A stretch of DNA of 64,000 bases, from the NCBI RefSeq assembly GCF_037078405.1, contig NZ_JAYMGZ010000002.1:558001-622000 (forward strand), in the 5' to 3' direction. The notes under the pieces are model-generated. The model was not told the DNA's origin. It searched no databases and was given only the letters and a program-made list of their open reading frames with translations. Source of the DNA: Haloarcula sp. DT43 (GTDB taxonomy: Archaea; Halobacteriota; Halobacteria; Halobacteriales; Haloarculaceae). Positions 9,684 to 56,809 of this stretch are shown one piece after another (position 1 is the first letter of the stretch; every line of letters begins with the position of its first letter). The position numbers and the translations under genes are program-made.

Positions 9684-11021
9684 ATGTCAAAGACCCCGCC
9701 CGGACCGAAGGGCGAACCGCTGTTCGGCAGTAGTCGCACGTACGCCCGGGACCCGTTCCGGTTCATCTCGGCGCTGGAGCGGGCCTACGGCGACGTCGCT
9801 CGCTTCGACATGGGGCCGATGGACACGGTCATGCTGTGTGACCCGACCGCAATCGAGCGCGTGCTGGTCTCGGAGGCCGACCGGTTTCGCAAGCCCGATT
9901 TCCAGGGCGACGCCCTGGGAGACCTGCTGGGTGACGGGCTGTTGCTGAGCGAGGGCGAGACGTGGGAACAGCAGCGAAAGCTCGCCAACCCCGCGTTTTC
10001 GATGGCTCGGCTGTCGGGAATGGCCGACCGCATCACCGGCCACGCCGAGGACCGCATCGCCGACTGGTCCCACGGCGACGTCATCGACGCCGAGCAGTCG
10101 ATGACGCGGGTCACGCTGGACGTCATCCTGGACCTGATGATGGGCGTCGAACTCTCCGAACAGCGGGTCCGCACAATCGAGGAGCAACTGCTGCCGCTAG
10201 GCCAGCGGTTCGAGCCCGACCCCATCCGGTTCGCCATGCCAGAGTGGGTGCCGATGCCCGACGACGCCGAGTTCGACCGCGCCGTGCGGACGCTGGACGA
10301 GGTGTTGGACGACATCATCGCCGTCCGCGAGGACACGGTCGGGACGGCGGAGGACGGCCCCATGGACTTCCTGTCAGTGCTTCTGCGGGCACGCGACGAC
10401 GGGAACCAGTCGCCCGACCAGCTCCGCGACGAGATGATGACGATGCTGCTCGCGGGCCACGACACGACGGCGCTGACGCTGACCTACACCTGGTTCCTGC
10501 TGTCGGAACACCCCGAGGTCGAACGGCGGGTCCACGAGGAACTGGACGCCGTCGTCGGCGACGACCGGCCGGGGATGGAACACGTCCGCGAGTTGGACTA
10601 CCTCGAATGGGTGATTCAGGAGGCGATGCGGCTCTACCCGCCGGTGTACACCATCTTCCGGGAGCCGACCGAGGACGTGACGCTGTCGGGCTACGAGGTC
10701 GAGGCCGGGACGACGCTGATGGTCCCGCAGTGGGGCGTCCACCGCTCCGAGCGGTTCTACGACGACCCCGAGGCGTTCGACCCGGAGCGCTGGAAACCCG
10801 AGCGGGCCGGCGAGCGCCCGCGGTTCGCCTACTTCCCGTTCGGTGGCGGGCCGCGCCACTGCATCGGGAAGCACCTCGCGATGCTGGAAGCGCAGCTCAT
10901 CACCGCCACTACGGCCAGCCAGTACCGACTGGAGTTCCAGGGTGAGACGCCCCTGGAACTGCTTCCGTCGCTGACTGCCCACCCCCGACAGGAGATGTCG
11001 ATGCGCGTGCGTGACCGCTGA
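9684..11021 (+). CDS. Cytochrome P450
   Basis: A 445-residue soluble haem monooxygenase. The proline-rich start (PPGPKGEPLFGSSRTYARDP), the oxygen-binding I-helix AGHDTTALTLTYTW (about residues 256-269), the K-helix EAMRLYPP (ExxR), PERW, and the haem loop FGGGPRHCIGKHLA with Cys393 as the iron ligand are all complete, so the enzyme should be active. No membrane anchor is present. Substrate and redox partner cannot be read from sequence; no ferredoxin or reductase gene adjoins it. The similarity is to bacterial-type soluble P450s known in haloarchaea, and proximity to isoprenoid genes 3 kb downstream is only suggestive. Confidence 0.93.
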   Translation: MSKTPPGPKGEPLFGSSRTYARDPFRFISALERAYGDVARFDMGPMDTVMLCDPTAIERVLVSEADRFRKPDFQGDALGDLLGDGLLLSEGETWEQQRKLANPAFSMARLSGMADRITGHAEDRIADWSHGDVIDAEQSMTRVTLDVILDLMMGVELSEQRVRTIEEQLLPLGQRFEPDPIRFAMPEWVPMPDDAEFDRAVRTLDEVLDDIIAVREDTVGTAEDGPMDFLSVLLRARDDGNQSPDQLRDEMMTMLLAGHDTTALTLTYTWFLLSEHPEVERRVHEELDAVVGDDRPGMEHVRELDYLEWVIQEAMRLYPPVYTIFREPTEDVTLSGYEVEAGTTLMVPQWGVHRSERFYDDPEAFDPERWKPERAGERPRFAYFPFGGGPRHCIGKHLAMLEAQLITATTASQYRLEFQGETPLELLPSLTAHPRQEMSMRVRDR

Positions 11022-11282: not shown

Positions 11283-13481
11283 ATGACGACCGCTACCGGA
11301 ACCGGAGGGCGCGACCGGGTTCGAGTCCTGTGTGTCGGCACCGATACGGACGACGCCGGGCTGGCGACGGCGCTGGAACGGGAGTGCGACCGGCTCTCGG
11401 CCGACACGGTCCGAACCGCCGCCGAAGCCGTAGCGGAATTGGCCGACGACGCCGTGGACTGTCTGGTCACCGAGTACGACCTGCCCGACCGGGACGGCGT
11501 CGAACTGCTGGAGACGGTCCGCGAGGACCACCCCGACCTCCCGGTCATCCTCTACACCGCCCATGGGAGCGAGGTGGTCGCCAGCGAGGCGATTTCGGCG
11601 GGCGTCACGGACTACCTCCGGAGAGAACCGGGCACCGGACAGCACGCCGGGCTGGCGAACCGAATCACGGACGCCGTCGACAAGTACCGCTCGAAACGGG
11701 CGGCAAACGAGCGGACCCGGACGCTCCGGAGCTACGAGCGGATGGTCAACTCCATGCGGGAGACGGCCTGCATCTACGACGCCGAGGGGCGGTTCGAAAC
11801 CGTCAACGAGGCGCTGGCGGAGTGGTACGACACGACGCGTGCCGACCTCGAAGGCCGGGTCAGCGAACTCGTCCCACGTATCCGGGCCGAGGGCGAGACG
11901 GACCGCTATCAGGAACTGCTCGACGGCACGCGGGCGGAACTCAGCGGCGAAATCAGGGCGGAGTTCCCCGGCCACGGACACGCGGTGGTCGCGTACCGAC
12001 TGACGCCGCTGTTCGTCGATGGTGTCGTCGACGGTATCGTCGCCGTCGCACGCGACGTCACCGACCGGAAAGAGCGCGAACGGGAACTGTTGCGGAACCA
12101 GCGCGCGATGGACGAGGCCCCGGTCGGTGTCACCATCACCGACCCCAGCCAGGCGGACAATCCGATGATATACGCCAACAACCACTACTGCGACCTGACT
12201 GGCTACTCGCTGCCGGAGGTACTCGGCGAGAACTGCCGGATGCTCCAGGGGCCGGACACCGACCCGGACGCCGTCGCCGCGATGCGGGACGCCATCGACG
12301 CGGAGGAGCGCGTGACGGTCGAACTCCGGAACTACCGCCAAGACGGGACCGAGTTCTGGAACAAAGTGCGTATCGCGCCGGTCCGCGACGACGACGGGTC
12401 GGTCGTCAACTACGTCGGGTTCCAGCAGGACATCACGGCGCGGAAACGCCGCGAGCGACGGCTGGAAGAAACATCCTCGCGGCTCGAAGCCCTCTTCGAG
12501 AACTCGCCGGACATGATAGACGTGCTCGACGCCGACGGAACGATTCGGGACGTGAATCAGCGGTTCTACACGGAGCTCGGATACGACGAAAGCGAAGTGC
12601 TCGGGCGGTCTATCTGGGAGTTCGACCGTCACTTCGACGCCGAGGACGTCAGGGAACAGCTCTCGGGGTTCCGCGTCGACGAGCGCCGCAAGTTCGAGGG
12701 CCTGTACGAGCGCCGCGACGGGTCGACGATGCCGGTCGAAGTGCATCTGCTCCGGCTCAGCCTCGACGGCGAGGACCGGTTCCTGGCAATCAGCCGCGAC
12801 ATCTCGGAGCGAAAGGAGCGCGAACAGGAGCTCCAGCGGCAAAACGAGCAGCTCGAACAGTTCGCCAGCGTCGTCTCCCACGACCTGCGGAACCCCCTGC
12901 AGGTCGCGCGCGGGCGACTGAAGCTCCTCAGTGAGGAGGTCGAAAGCGAGCACGTCGACGCCATCGACAGCGCAAACCAGCGAATGGAGACGCTCATCGA
13001 CGACCTGCTGACGCTCGCACGCGACGGGGCCTCGCCCGCCTCGCTGGCCGCGGTCGACCTCGAACCGGTCGTCGCGTCGTGCTGGGAGACCGTCGAAACG
13101 AGAGACGCGACGCTCCGGGCCGACGCCGACCGCTCCATCCGCGCCGACGAGAGCCGGCTCCGACAGCTGTTCGAGAACCTCGTCCGCAACGCGGTCGAAC
13201 ACGGCGGCGACGACGTGACCGTGACCGTCGGCGACCTGGACGGGGGCTTCTACGTCGCCGACGACGGCCCCGGTATCCCTGGCCCCGACCGCGGTGACGT
13301 GTTCGAGGCCGGCTACACGACGGCGGCCGACGGGACCGGGTTCGGCCTGAGCATCGTCAAACAGGTCGCTGACGCCCACGGCTGGACGGTCCGCGTCGTC
13401 GATGGGCCCGACGGCGGCGCTCGCTTCGAGTTCACCGGCGTCGACACCGCGCCCCCGACCGTCGACTCCGAAAACACCTAA
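11283..13481 (+). CDS. Hybrid LOV/PAS sensor histidine kinase
   Basis: A 732-residue soluble sensor kinase. Residues 12-125 resemble a receiver, but the phosphoacceptor position holds Glu64 (in TEYDLPDRDG) where Asp is expected. A PAS domain (about 145-260), then a LOV-type PAS (about 268-388), a third PAS (about 400-512), HisKA with His533 (SHDLRNPL) and a HATPase domain (ENLVRNAVEHGG, DDGPGIPG, GTGFGLSIV) follow. The second PAS has the flavin adduct motif GENCRMLQG (Cys318), Asn350, Asn360 and Gln381, at the spacing of plant phototropin LOV2. There are no membrane segments. A blue-light or redox role is inferred; no partner regulator adjoins it. Confidence 0.9.
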   Translation: MTTATGTGGRDRVRVLCVGTDTDDAGLATALERECDRLSADTVRTAAEAVAELADDAVDCLVTEYDLPDRDGVELLETVREDHPDLPVILYTAHGSEVVASEAISAGVTDYLRREPGTGQHAGLANRITDAVDKYRSKRAANERTRTLRSYERMVNSMRETACIYDAEGRFETVNEALAEWYDTTRADLEGRVSELVPRIRAEGETDRYQELLDGTRAELSGEIRAEFPGHGHAVVAYRLTPLFVDGVVDGIVAVARDVTDRKERERELLRNQRAMDEAPVGVTITDPSQADNPMIYANNHYCDLTGYSLPEVLGENCRMLQGPDTDPDAVAAMRDAIDAEERVTVELRNYRQDGTEFWNKVRIAPVRDDDGSVVNYVGFQQDITARKRRERRLEETSSRLEALFENSPDMIDVLDADGTIRDVNQRFYTELGYDESEVLGRSIWEFDRHFDAEDVREQLSGFRVDERRKFEGLYERRDGSTMPVEVHLLRLSLDGEDRFLAISRDISERKEREQELQRQNEQLEQFASVVSHDLRNPLQVARGRLKLLSEEVESEHVDAIDSANQRMETLIDDLLTLARDGASPASLAAVDLEPVVASCWETVETRDATLRADADRSIRADESRLRQLFENLVRNAVEHGGDDVTVTVGDLDGGFYVADDGPGIPGPDRGDVFEAGYTTAADGTGFGLSIVKQVADAHGWTVRVVDGPDGGARFEFTGVDTAPPTVDSENT

Positions 13482-13505
13482 CGCCCTGGGCGCACACGGG
13501 CGGGT

Positions 13506-14489
13506 ATGGTCACGTCGAGCGCTCCCGGGAAGGTGTACCTGTTCGGGGAGCACGCGGTCGTCTACGGCGAGCCGGCGGTGCCCTGCGCCATCGAGCGGCG
13601 GGTGCACGTGACGGCAACCGAAATCGACGAGGGGTTGCGCATCCACGCGAACGACTTGCAACTGGACGGCTTTACCGTCGAGTACTCCGGCGACGGGGAG
13701 AGCCACCCGGACGTGGACGTCGCCGAATCGCTCGTCGAGGCGGGCATGGGATACGTCAACGAAGCGGTGGCACAGGCCCGCGACGCGGCCGACGCGCCGG
13801 ACGCAGGCTTCGAAATCTCCGTCGAGGGCGACATCCCGCTCGGGGCGGGACTGGGCTCGTCGGCCGCGCTCGTCGTCGCGGCGATAGACGCGGCGACGCG
13901 GGAACTCGGCGTCGAACTGTCCGCCGGGGAAATCGCCGACCGCGCCTACCGCGTCGAACACGCGGTCCAGGACGGGCAGGCCTCCCGTGCGGACACGTTC
14001 TGCTCGGCGATGGGCGGGGCGGTCCGCGTGGAGGGCGACGACTGCCGGCGGCTGGACGGCATCGACAATCTCCCCTTCGTCATCGGGTACGACGGCGGGG
14101 CCGGCGACACCGGGGCGCTGGTCGCCGGCGTCCGGGACCTCCGCGAGGAGTACGACTTCGCCGCCGACACGGTCGAAGCCATCGGCGATGTCGTCCGCGA
14201 GGGCGAGGCGGTGCTCGGGACGGGCGACTACGAGCGGCTGGGGGACCTGATGGACTTCAACCACGGCCTGCTCTCGGCGCTGGGCGTCTCCTCGCGGTCG
14301 CTGGACTCGATGGTGTGGGCGGCCCGCGACGCCGACGCTCACGGCGCGAAACTCACCGGGGCCGGCGGCGGCGGCTGTATCGTCGCGCTGGACGAGACGG
14401 ACGACGCGCTCACGGCACTGAAGTACACGCCGGGGTGTGAGAGCGTCTTCCGGGCCGAACTCGACACCGACGGGGTCCGGCGGGAATGA
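13506..14489 (+). CDS. mvk: Mevalonate kinase
   Basis: A 327-residue GHMP kinase phosphorylating mevalonate at O5 in archaeal isoprenoid synthesis. It starts SSAPGKVYLFGEHAVVYGEPAV (substrate motif 1), has the ATP loop IPLGAGLGSSAALVVA (about residues 112-127) and ends with the GHMP motif KLTGAGGGGCIVAL. It overlaps the isopentenyl phosphate kinase gene by four bases (ATGA at 14486). Co-location fits the haloarchaeal route through isopentenyl phosphate, which bypasses phosphomevalonate kinase. Confidence 0.95.
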   Translation: MVTSSAPGKVYLFGEHAVVYGEPAVPCAIERRVHVTATEIDEGLRIHANDLQLDGFTVEYSGDGESHPDVDVAESLVEAGMGYVNEAVAQARDAADAPDAGFEISVEGDIPLGAGLGSSAALVVAAIDAATRELGVELSAGEIADRAYRVEHAVQDGQASRADTFCSAMGGAVRVEGDDCRRLDGIDNLPFVIGYDGGAGDTGALVAGVRDLREEYDFAADTVEAIGDVVREGEAVLGTGDYERLGDLMDFNHGLLSALGVSSRSLDSMVWAARDADAHGAKLTGAGGGGCIVALDETDDALTALKYTPGCESVFRAELDTDGVRRE

Positions 14490-20428: not shown

Positions 20429-21418
20429 TCACTCGGTCGTGTCGACGTCGGTGATTTCGAACTGCGCTCCGCCGGTTTCACTCTCGGTGACACTGATGTC
20501 CCACCCCTGGGCAACGACGTTTCTTCGGACGAGATGGAGGCCGAGGCCCGTCCCGTCACCGAGAGTGTACTTGCGTTCGAATACCCGCCCACGCTCGCTT
20601 TCGGGTATGCCGGTCCCGTTGTCGGCGACGTAGAAGCCGTCCTCCAGGTCGCCAACCGTGACGGTCACTCCCCTGCCCCCGTGTTCGACGGCGTTCCCCA
20701 GGAGATTATCGAAGATAGGCTTCAACCGGGACGGGATAGCCGTAACCGTCCGGTCTGTTTCGAGGACGAGCGTCTCGTTGGTCGTATCAATCGTCTGCCA
20801 GCACCACTTCGCCATCTCCGCGAGGGCAATATCCTCGACCGTCCCCGCGTTCTCCCCGTCCCGTGCGAGCGCTAACTGGTCGTCGACTGTCTCGGACGCC
20901 CGCTCGACGGCGTTGCTCACGACATCGAGGTAGCTACTGTCGCACTCCTCGCGCGCGAGTTTCAAGTTCGCACGGGCGACGCCCAGTGGGTTCCTGAGGT
21001 CGTGGCTCACCTGCTCGGCGAACTCCTCCAACTGCTCCGTCTGCTGCTCGAATAGTCGTTCGTACTGGCGCTGTGCTGTCGCATCCCGGACGACTTTCGC
21101 AAACCCACTGAGTGCGCCGGACTCATCGAACAGCGCGGTGAGGGAGAACTCCGCCCAGAACCGCTCCCCGTCTTTCCGGACGCGCCAGCCCTGTCCTTTT
21201 ATCGCACCCTCGTTTTCGGCACGAGCCAGTAACTGTTCTGGTGCCCCCGTAGATATCGCGTCGTCGACAAAAAACGTCCGGTAGTGCGTTCCGAGTATCT
21301 CGCTTCGGGAATACCCCTTGATACGTTCGGCCCCCGCATTCCACGTAGCGACGCGGCCGTCCGGCCCCATCTCGAAAATCGCGTAGTGTTCGATATCCGC
21401 TACAAAATCAAAACTCAT
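20429..21418 (-). CDS. PAS domain sensor histidine kinase
   Basis: A compact 329-residue soluble kinase. One PAS domain (about 5-118; YAIFEMGPDGRVATWNAGAERIKGY) is followed by HisKA with His139 (EQVSHDLRNPLG) and a HATPase domain (FDNLLGNAVEHGG, ADNGTGIPE, GDGTGLGLHLV). The PAS lacks the LOV cysteine motif. Its kinase core closely resembles the C-terminus of the LOV-kinase at 11283-13481 (both contain VTVTVGDL then GFYVAD), so the two look like paralogues. TTTTTATC about 28 bases upstream on this strand supports the ATG at 21418. No response regulator is adjacent. Confidence 0.9.
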   Translation of the reverse strand: MSFDFVADIEHYAIFEMGPDGRVATWNAGAERIKGYSRSEILGTHYRTFFVDDAISTGAPEQLLARAENEGAIKGQGWRVRKDGERFWAEFSLTALFDESGALSGFAKVVRDATAQRQYERLFEQQTEQLEEFAEQVSHDLRNPLGVARANLKLAREECDSSYLDVVSNAVERASETVDDQLALARDGENAGTVEDIALAEMAKWCWQTIDTTNETLVLETDRTVTAIPSRLKPIFDNLLGNAVEHGGRGVTVTVGDLEDGFYVADNGTGIPESERGRVFERKYTLGDGTGLGLHLVRRNVVAQGWDISVTESETGGAQFEITDVDTTE

Positions 21419-53915: not shown

Positions 53916-55316
53916 CTACCGCACGGGCATCGTCACGGAGACGCGGGTCCCCTCGGCGTCGGTCCGGATGTCGATGTCGCCGCCCACGTAGCTGATGAGC
54001 CAGTACGCGAACCACAGCCCCAGCCCGGACCCGTGTTCGAGCGGTTTCTCGTCGGCCACCTCGATGACGCGGCGCTCGCGGTCCGGGACGCCCGGCCCGT
54101 TGTCCGAAATCGTCACCGTCGCCGTCGTGCCGTGGCGCTCCGTCCGGATGACGACCCGCGGCGCTGCCGCCTCGGAGTGTTTGATGCCGTTCTCTATGAG
54201 TTCCTGTAGCGCCGGGACGACCTTCGCGTCTATCGTCGACGAGGCGACCGGGTCGCTCTCGACGACGAACTCGGCGTCGGGGTAGGCCGCGGCCAGCCCG
54301 TCCGTGATGTCTCCGAGAACGCCGTCGAGGTCGCGCTCGACGTCGTCGCCGACCGAGTCCGCGAGCAGTTCCTGGACGTGGTGGGCCTTCTCGCTGATGT
54401 CGAGCAGCGACTGGACGTTCGCCTTGATGGTCTCTAAGTGGTCGACGGCGTCGTCGTCGTCGACGAGTTCAGTCAGGATGTCCGCACGGCCGCTTATCGT
54501 CGTGCCATTGTTCCGGAGGTTGTGGCGGAGAATCCGGTGGAAGACGGTGAGCTGTTGCTCGCGCAGCCGCCGGCCGGTGATTTCGTCCTGCATCCCGACA
54601 AAGCCCTGTATCTCCCCGTCTGCGTCCTGAATCGGGGCGATGGTCTGGTTGCTGATGAACCGCTCACCGGACTTGCGCTCGTTTACGATTTCGCTCGTCC
54701 AGACCTCGCCGCGACAGATGGTGTCCCAGAGCCGCTCGTAGAACTGTTGGTCCTGTTCGCCGGACTTGAGTATCCGCGGCGTCCGACCGAGCGCCTCCTC
54801 GGCGCTGAAGCCGGTCAGCTCCTCGAACGCCGGGTTCACGTACTCGATGACGCCGTTCGTGTCCGTTATGAGAATCGCGTGGCCCGCGTGCTCGACGGCG
54901 TTTCTGAACCGCCGGAGCTCGCTGTTTTGCTCCCGGAGGTCCGCGACGAGTTCCTCGGTGTGGCTGCGCCGCGCGAGGAGGTTCGCGATAGTCCGAAAGA
55001 GCGCCTGCGTGTCCACCGGCGCGGTCACGACGTCGTTGACGACGAGTGGCCCCTCGGCGTCGTCGATGTCGGGCAGGTCGACTCTGGCCGACCGCCCCTC
55101 GTGACGGACCAGAATCACGGGGCAAAACACCGGGTCCGACCGGTCCTTGTACCGCTCTATCGCCGCCCTGTACTTCGGAAACGACGGCTCGTCGACGATG
55201 TGGAGGTCCGCCGCCCGGAACTCCTCGTCCGTGACCGGCGTGTGGTGCTCGGCCACGACCGACGCAAGCGCCTCCCGGTTGCCGTCGCCCGCCAGCAGTA
55301 GTTGGATGTCGCCCAT
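53916..55316 (-). CDS. PAS sensor histidine kinase paired with KaiC-like ATPase
   Basis: A 466-residue soluble kinase. Residues 1-118 form a receiver-like domain (IQLLLAGDGNREALASVVAEHHT) with DLHIVDEPSF at the phosphoacceptor region. A PAS domain covers about 136-250 (AILITDTNGVIEYVNPAFEELTGF). The phosphoacceptor is His265 in FHRILRHNLRNNG, the haloarchaeal RHNLRN type, and HATPase follows (ELIENGIKHSE, SDNGPGVPDRE, GSGLGLWFAYWL). It begins two bases after the KaiC-like gene's stop, so the pair is made from one mRNA. No response regulator is near. Confidence 0.9.
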   Translation of the reverse strand: MGDIQLLLAGDGNREALASVVAEHHTPVTDEEFRAADLHIVDEPSFPKYRAAIERYKDRSDPVFCPVILVRHEGRSARVDLPDIDDAEGPLVVNDVVTAPVDTQALFRTIANLLARRSHTEELVADLREQNSELRRFRNAVEHAGHAILITDTNGVIEYVNPAFEELTGFSAEEALGRTPRILKSGEQDQQFYERLWDTICRGEVWTSEIVNERKSGERFISNQTIAPIQDADGEIQGFVGMQDEITGRRLREQQLTVFHRILRHNLRNNGTTISGRADILTELVDDDDAVDHLETIKANVQSLLDISEKAHHVQELLADSVGDDVERDLDGVLGDITDGLAAAYPDAEFVVESDPVASSTIDAKVVPALQELIENGIKHSEAAAPRVVIRTERHGTTATVTISDNGPGVPDRERRVIEVADEKPLEHGSGLGLWFAYWLISYVGGDIDIRTDAEGTRVSVTMPVR

Positions 55317-55318
55317 CG

Positions 55319-56809
55319 TTAGCGGGTGGCCGACCGGCCGTCGCTGTCGCCCTGTTGCTCGGGAACGCCATCGAACACCCCGTGCATCCCCGAGACGGGG
55401 TCCCCGACTTGGAGTCCGTCGGCGGATATCTCGAAGCGGCGGGGCACCGCCTCGAACCCGCCGACGCGCTTCTTCAGCGCGCCGACGACCCGCTGGAGTT
55501 CCCCCTCGACCTCGATGTAGTTCTCGAAGACGATGTTGTCGGCGAGATAGCTGACGTTCTCGCTCGTGGGTTCGTGCAGGCCCGTCACGTCCCGGCGCTG
55601 GTCTATCAGGATGACGGCGGCGTTCTCTCGCGTGAGCTGCTGTGTCAGGGCGTGGAGTCGCCGGCGCAGTTCCACGCCGTCCTGTCCGTGCTTGATGGCG
55701 TTCTTGTAGCCCGCGATGCCGTCGACGACGACGAGTTCGGCCCCTCTCTCCGCGGCCTGTGACGTCACGCGGTTGGCGAACTCCTCGGGCGACAGCGCCA
55801 GCGACTCGATTTCCTCGACGTGGAGCGCCCCCGTCCCGCGCAACTCCGAGACCGGTGTCCCGAACGTCTCACAGCGGTGCGTGAACGTGTCGATGGACTC
55901 GTCGAACAGGTACGCCAGCGCCGGGGAGCCGTCCGCCGCCGCCGTGGCCAGAAACGCCGTCGCCGTCGTCGACTTGCCGACGCCGGAGGGGCCGCTGAGA
56001 ATCGTCACCGTCCCGCGTTCGAGCCCGCCGTCGAGAAGCGAGTCCAGTTCCGGTATCCCGGCGGCGAACTGCTCGGGGTCGAACGACCGCGTCCGCTGGC
56101 GCGGTTCCAGCGCCGGATAGACCTCGACGCCGGACTCGCGGATTTCCATCCCGTGTGAGCCGTCCTGCTGACCGATGCCGCGATGCTTGCGCAGCCGAAC
56201 CCGCCGCCCCGCCTTCTCGTCGCCGTAGCTGAGCGAGATGATGCCGTCGCTGAGGGACCTGAGCTGCGTGTCCATCTCGTTGCTCGGCGTCTTGGTCGCC
56301 AGCACGGTCGTCTCCCTGTCCTGCAGGAACCGCGCGAAGGCGATGACGCGCTTGCGGAACTGGTACTCGGTCGGTTCGAGGTACTGGAAGTGCGTTATCG
56401 GGTCGAGGAGGACGCGGTCCGGGTCGACCGTCTCGATGGCCTCGCGGATGTCGGAAATCAGGTGGCCGTCCTCGACGTCGCGCGGTTTGACCACGTCGTA
56501 GGACTCCGCTTCCTCGAAGAACTCCGAGTCGGGGCCCACGTCGAGAAACGTCGCTTCGCCGATGTCGATGCCGAGTTCGGCGGTGTTGGCGAGCAGGTCC
56601 GCGGCCGACTCCTCGGCGTGGATGAACAGCACGTCGTCGCCGGCCTCCAGCCCCGCTTCGAGGAACTGCGCGCCGAGCAGTGTCTTGCCGGTGCCCGGCG
56701 GTCCGATGACGAGATAGAGCCGCCCTTCCACCAGCCCGCCTCTGAGAAGGGAATCGAGTCCGGAGATACCGCTGGAAAGCCGCGTGAACTGCTGCGAGGG
56801 AGAGGACAT
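55319..56809 (-). CDS. KaiC/RadA-like double-domain ATPase
   Basis: A 496-residue protein with two RecA-like domains. The first has FTRLSSGISGLDSLLRGGL, Walker A GPPGTGKT (36-43), the paired glutamates in HAEES (66-67) and Walker B VLLDPITHF. The second has FAAGIPELDSLLDGGL, Walker A GPSGVGKST (273-281) and LFDES. It matches circadian-type KaiC homologues of archaea rather than RadA. The autophosphorylation Ser/Thr pair of cyanobacterial KaiC could not be placed. The next gene is a histidine kinase two bases downstream, an arrangement recalling KaiC with SasA. No kaiB-like gene is nearby. Confidence 0.9.
   Translation of the reverse strand: MSSPSQQFTRLSSGISGLDSLLRGGLVEGRLYLVIGPPGTGKTLLGAQFLEAGLEAGDDVLFIHAEESAADLLANTAELGIDIGEATFLDVGPDSEFFEEAESYDVVKPRDVEDGHLISDIREAIETVDPDRVLLDPITHFQYLEPTEYQFRKRVIAFARFLQDRETTVLATKTPSNEMDTQLRSLSDGIISLSYGDEKAGRRVRLRKHRGIGQQDGSHGMEIRESGVEVYPALEPRQRTRSFDPEQFAAGIPELDSLLDGGLERGTVTILSGPSGVGKSTTATAFLATAAADGSPALAYLFDESIDTFTHRCETFGTPVSELRGTGALHVEEIESLALSPEEFANRVTSQAAERGAELVVVDGIAGYKNAIKHGQDGVELRRRLHALTQQLTRENAAVILIDQRRDVTGLHEPTSENVSYLADNIVFENYIEVEGELQRVVGALKKRVGGFEAVPRRFEISADGLQVGDPVSGMHGVFDGVPEQQGDSDGRSATR

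Follow-up and report, generated by a model that had tools for sequence, protein, structure and literature searches.

A predicted blue-light-sensing LOV histidine kinase of the ordinary haloarchaeal class upstream of mvk in Haloarcula sp. DT43

The open reading frame at positions 11283 to 13481 (forward strand) of the window, the 64,000-nucleotide stretch of Haloarcula sp. DT43 DNA analysed here, encodes a 732-residue protein that, judged from its sequence and a predicted domain fold, is very probably a cytosolic histidine kinase that senses blue light and belongs to the ordinary class of haloarchaeal LOV kinases. The ORF list, translation, Pfam matches and orthologues give the domain order REC-PAS-LOV-PAS-HisKA-HATPase, with Pfam assigning Response_reg to residues 27-113, three PAS stretches, HisKA to 524-581 and HATPase_c to 622-718. 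The histidine kinase output proposed in an earlier note is borne out by these matches and by a complete set of kinase motifs. The HisKA dimerisation and phosphoacceptor domain (positions 12840 to 13052, +; PF00512, E=3.1e-15) places the phosphoacceptor at His533 (12879-12881) in the alignment, and the aligned HATPase_c catalytic domain (13080 to 13442, +; PF02518, E=2.7e-21) carries the N (N636), G1 (DDGPGIP) and G2 (GTGFGL) boxes. PAS1 (residues 150-262; 11730 to 12068, +), delimited by the Pfam PAS stretches and the translation, is not a LOV domain, and PAS3 (residues 398-512; 12474 to 12818, +), matched by PF08448 at 405-512, occupies the interval between the LOV domain and the kinase. A second, shorter PAS-HisKA-HATPase kinase of 329 residues is encoded at positions 20429-21418 (-) of the window.

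The LOV domain comprises residues 273-388 (12099 to 12446, +). The earlier numbering of Cys318 (12234-12236), Asn350 (12330-12332), Asn360 (12360-12362) and Gln381 (12423-12425), all on the forward strand, is exact when counted from the ATG of the frame, and in the translation and alignment the remaining conserved flavin-site arginines, Arg319 and Arg335 (12285-12287, +), are also in place. The reactive-cysteine motif NCRxLQ is present as ENCRMLQG with C318, and none of the six flavin-site residues varies across the ten aligned orthologues. The best match among PDB sequences is the YtvA LOV domain (E=7e-34, whole domain covered), followed by aureochromes (about 3e-33) and AsLOV2 (about 4e-29), and the top NCBIfam matches include the YtvA and blue-light-activated histidine kinase models, which score under their whole-protein cut-offs. 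Prediction with AF2 from 24 aligned haloarchaeal LOV sequences gave a best model of the domain with a mean pLDDT of 93.3; since the remaining four models of the run reached only 72-79, confidence is drawn jointly from the best model and from the homologous structures. Foldseek with the AF2 model put a Meiothermus LOV domain on top (TM 0.95-0.97, rmsd 0.6-1.0) and, below it, 4gcz, aureochromes, Brucella LOV-HK and YtvA. Brucella LOV-HK and the YtvA LOV domain share the LOV fold and flavin site with the window protein, as Brucella LOV-HK does the LOV-PAS-kinase order, whereas both are bacterial, have no receiver or PAS1 ahead of the LOV domain and are unlike it in the kinase region. A dN/dS of about 0.16 indicates that the domain is under purifying selection. 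Sequence matches, predicted fold and orthologue conservation thus agree on a LOV domain, and the flavin binding and cysteinyl adduct that had been claimed for it are, with ALovD-1 as precedent, very likely properties of residues 273-388.

ALovD-1 comes from a Halonotius-type haloarchaeal histidine kinase with three PAS domains, of which it is the second. It binds FMN, has a 446-nm dark state and a 390-nm adduct, and is functional to 3 M salt (Valle et al. 2025; PMC12202551). The window protein resembles the parent kinase of ALovD-1 in that LOV is the middle one of its three PAS domains, in its length of about 730 residues and in coming from a halophile; going by the published description, the DXEE loop, the Arg in the NYR turn and the Tyr at the position equivalent to 302 are also shared, while Tyr48 of ALovD-1 is replaced by M320. 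The single Halonotius locus that we compared reached just 37% in the best-aligned segment. Set against the group A marks of Valle et al. 2025 (DXEE, an Arg-Asp turn, and FWN plus Arg), the window protein has DAEE and RQDG, with FWNK where its orthologues have FWNR.

The proposed course of signalling would begin with FMN bound by the LOV domain, to which Cys318 would become bonded at flavin C4a under blue light. Protonation of N5 would then rotate Gln381, and the last LOV strand and the following helix may relay the change via PAS3 to the HisKA dimer, where autophosphorylation of His533 would be altered. Because acid pair, phosphoacceptor Asp and Lys are all missing from the protein's own receiver, the phosphate would presumably be passed to a response regulator that is unlinked; none of the immediate neighbours inspected was recognised as a response-regulator gene. 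Light control of the kinase, like the direction of the light effect, the phosphotransfer partner and the physiological output, is something that we infer.

It is improbable that the domain binds flavin and yet serves mainly in redox or oxygen sensing via a flavin semiquinone, with the cysteine adduct secondary. LOV receptors that lack the cysteine can signal through flavin photoreduction (PMC4682037), and some LOV-like sequences of haloarchaea (L127, L136) carry Pro or His instead of the Cys. However, the cysteine is kept in 10/10 orthologues and in 103 of the 105 haloarchaeal LOV sequences gathered by the motif N-x-R-x-[LIVM]-Q plus two Asn, which does not require it.

Within the LOV site, the photochemical triad is formed by Y302, Y308 and M320, mapped onto Y30, Y36 and Y48 of ALovD-1 by their offset from the cysteine (C46). 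Tyr-Tyr-Met/Ile/Val is found in 10/10 Haloarcula orthologues, and Phe-Tyr-Phe, said to be invariable in characterised LOV domains (PMC12202551), in 76 of the 105 haloarchaeal domains. On this alignment, the Tyr-Tyr-aliphatic triad of the Haloarcula clade is a small novelty against the Phe-Tyr-Phe of most LOV domains. We have softened the stronger claim that it is unique to the clade, as Tyr-Tyr-Ile recurs in another haloarchaeon (L176) and Tyr-Tyr-Phe is found in ten sequences. The Y48F exchange in ALovD-1 lowers the adduct yield from 0.49 to 0.13 and unmasks quenching by Y30 (PMC12202551); given the aliphatic residue at that position here, a low yield is conceivable despite the complete LOV site. 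By this analogy the Haloarcula LOV domains could be photochemically retuned, possibly with a lower adduct yield and a kinase that reports strong light only, which we consider a tentative and rather unlikely proposal. Fast cycling from Thr284, which aligns with the V416T site of AsLOV2 (time constant of the variant 2.6 s; PMC3867380), was rejected, as Thr is found in 70/105 haloarchaeal LOV domains and ALovD-1, the sole measured haloarchaeal LOV domain, cycles slowly.

The receiver (residues 14-120; 11322 to 11642, +) is recognised by Pfam (PF00072, E=3.6e-15) and is degenerate in the alignment, where G19/T20, E64 and R114 replace the acid pair, phosphoacceptor Asp and conserved Lys of a phosphorylatable receiver. 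Alignment confirms the previously noted Glu at the phosphoacceptor position and shows that it is not family-wide: E64 with R114 occurs only in the window protein and one orthologue (L020), and the remaining eight of the ten orthologues have D64 and K114. The acid-pair site reads G19/T20 (I20 in one) in the ten orthologues, all of which are therefore without the pair, and among the domains compared dN/dS is highest in the receiver, at 0.30, with LOV at 0.16 and PAS3 and HisKA at 0.11. We conclude that the receiver is decaying or has turned into a docking domain, and the kinase ought not to be labelled a phosphorelay hybrid. Glu64 as a phosphomimetic switch was likewise rejected, in view of the Asp in 8/10 orthologues and the absence of the acid pair from all ten.

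The kinase gene lies between ORFs at 9684 to 11021 (+), a conserved neighbour which we take from a recognised family motif to encode a cytochrome P450, and at 13506 to 14489 (+), presumably, from its recognised family, mevalonate kinase (mvk). Across the other 31 congeners the mvk product shows 80-96% identity, and nine of these congeners have an orthologue of the kinase (77-81% identity) flanked alike by P450 and mvk; the closest named loci, at 79-80%, are those of H. vallismortis, H. amylolytica, H. sebkhae, H. argentinensis and H. japonica, which places the window in Haloarcula. Among the remaining congeners, most have mvk after the P450 gene without the kinase, directly or up to about 1 kb apart, and in a few the sequence compared stopped short of the P450 gene. 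The gap in G019, G021 and G027 retains a stretch that aligns with the C-terminal codons of the kinase (RFEFSD in two, RLDFAD in one), which suggests that the kinase was probably deleted there. Its seeming deletion in these three close relatives implies that the kinase is dispensable.

A promoter-like element 5' of mvk, TCCGAAAACACCTAAC (13467 to 13482, +), doubles as the final codons and stop of the kinase. Relative to its orthologues, the window kinase has a deletion of about 22 nt, found only in the host genome among those compared, by which the orthologues' stop is lost; the frame consequently runs into the mvk element and stops at the TAA of that element. Irrespective of the kinase, TCCGAAAACRCCTAAC or a near variant stands ahead of mvk in the Haloarcula genomes compared, and from this conservation and the distance to the ATG we infer that TCCGAAAACRCCTAAC is the mvk promoter. 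Such an element argues against a reading in which the kinase is an operon partner of mvk and directly couples the synthesis of isoprenoids (lipids, carotenoids, retinal) to light. The 24 nt between the end of the kinase and mvk would suit that arrangement, as would the order of kinase, mvk and then an isopentenyl phosphate kinase gene in ten species. Since the upstream element is conserved in the absence of the kinase, and mvk itself is kept without the kinase in many congeners, we regard direct isoprenoid control as very improbable and reject it.

LOV domains are common to most haloarchaea. LOV-grade domains, counted at a cut-off of E<=1e-28 in which the cysteine itself is not part of the criterion, occur in 260 of the 292 haloarchaeal species sampled as class-level genomes and in 72/77 genera, as against 202/292 genomes and 59/77 genera for rhodopsin (PF01036). 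Thirteen of the 20 listed rhodopsin-negative genomes are LOV-positive; the host genome has three rhodopsins. A 2014 survey had already counted 167 LOV proteins, with numerous kinases, across some 85 archaeal species, and found that 30% of halobacterial LOV proteins have HTH outputs and the rest are kinases (PMC4844311). The LOV kinases described there by Losi and colleagues (2014) likewise belong to two-component systems, and those of Halobacteria have RR, GAF and PAS as extra units; the window kinase differs from them only in species and in details around the flavin. A literature search for Haloarcula LOV proteins returned nothing pertinent. The suggestion that a flavin-based kinase is notable in a lineage dominated by rhodopsins thus does not hold, and apart from a few curiosities of its locus the kinase is a regular member of a family already known, with nothing unusual for its lineage.

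With E<=0.001 as the limit, the LOV query matches 38 stretches of the host genome, just three of which are LOV-grade (E<=1.6e-38), with a wide gap to the best non-LOV PAS domain (E=5e-15). That residues 273-388 are merely a LOV-like PAS domain without flavin, as the many PAS domains of this genome might suggest, is so improbable in the face of this gap, the full flavin-site signature, its invariance among orthologues and the predicted LOV fold that we set it aside. The other two LOV-grade proteins of the host, a pair (L002/L003) with complete flavin-site residues, lie in open frames of 1144 residues (C3:621192, E=2.2e-55) and 1445 residues (C4:111899, E=1.6e-38). The top non-LOV match genome-wide belongs to the window itself, where positions 53916-56809 (-) encode a KaiC-type ATPase (PF06745, E=1.4e-61) and, 2 bp on, the PAS histidine kinase in question; the two are possibly a signalling pair.

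Comparison of the Haloarcula locus kinases and their homologues indicates that sensor modules have been shuffled among them. The kinase at the same site in G023 (L026) is similar to the window protein in REC (56% identity), PAS1 (64%), HisKA (66%) and HATPase (74%), while its segments at the LOV and PAS3 positions are only 28-30% identical, lack the LOV residues and are ordinary PAS domains. Conversely, the homologues L027 and L028 are alike in LOV and PAS3 (54-60%) and not in PAS1 (19-21%). The window protein thus adds one more haloarchaeal blue-light kinase, and its interest lies mainly in the census and in the variants of its locus. Presence, loss and sensor-swap variants of the kinase are available within a single genus, and L026, as a natural sensor swap, would make the modularity of the input testable.
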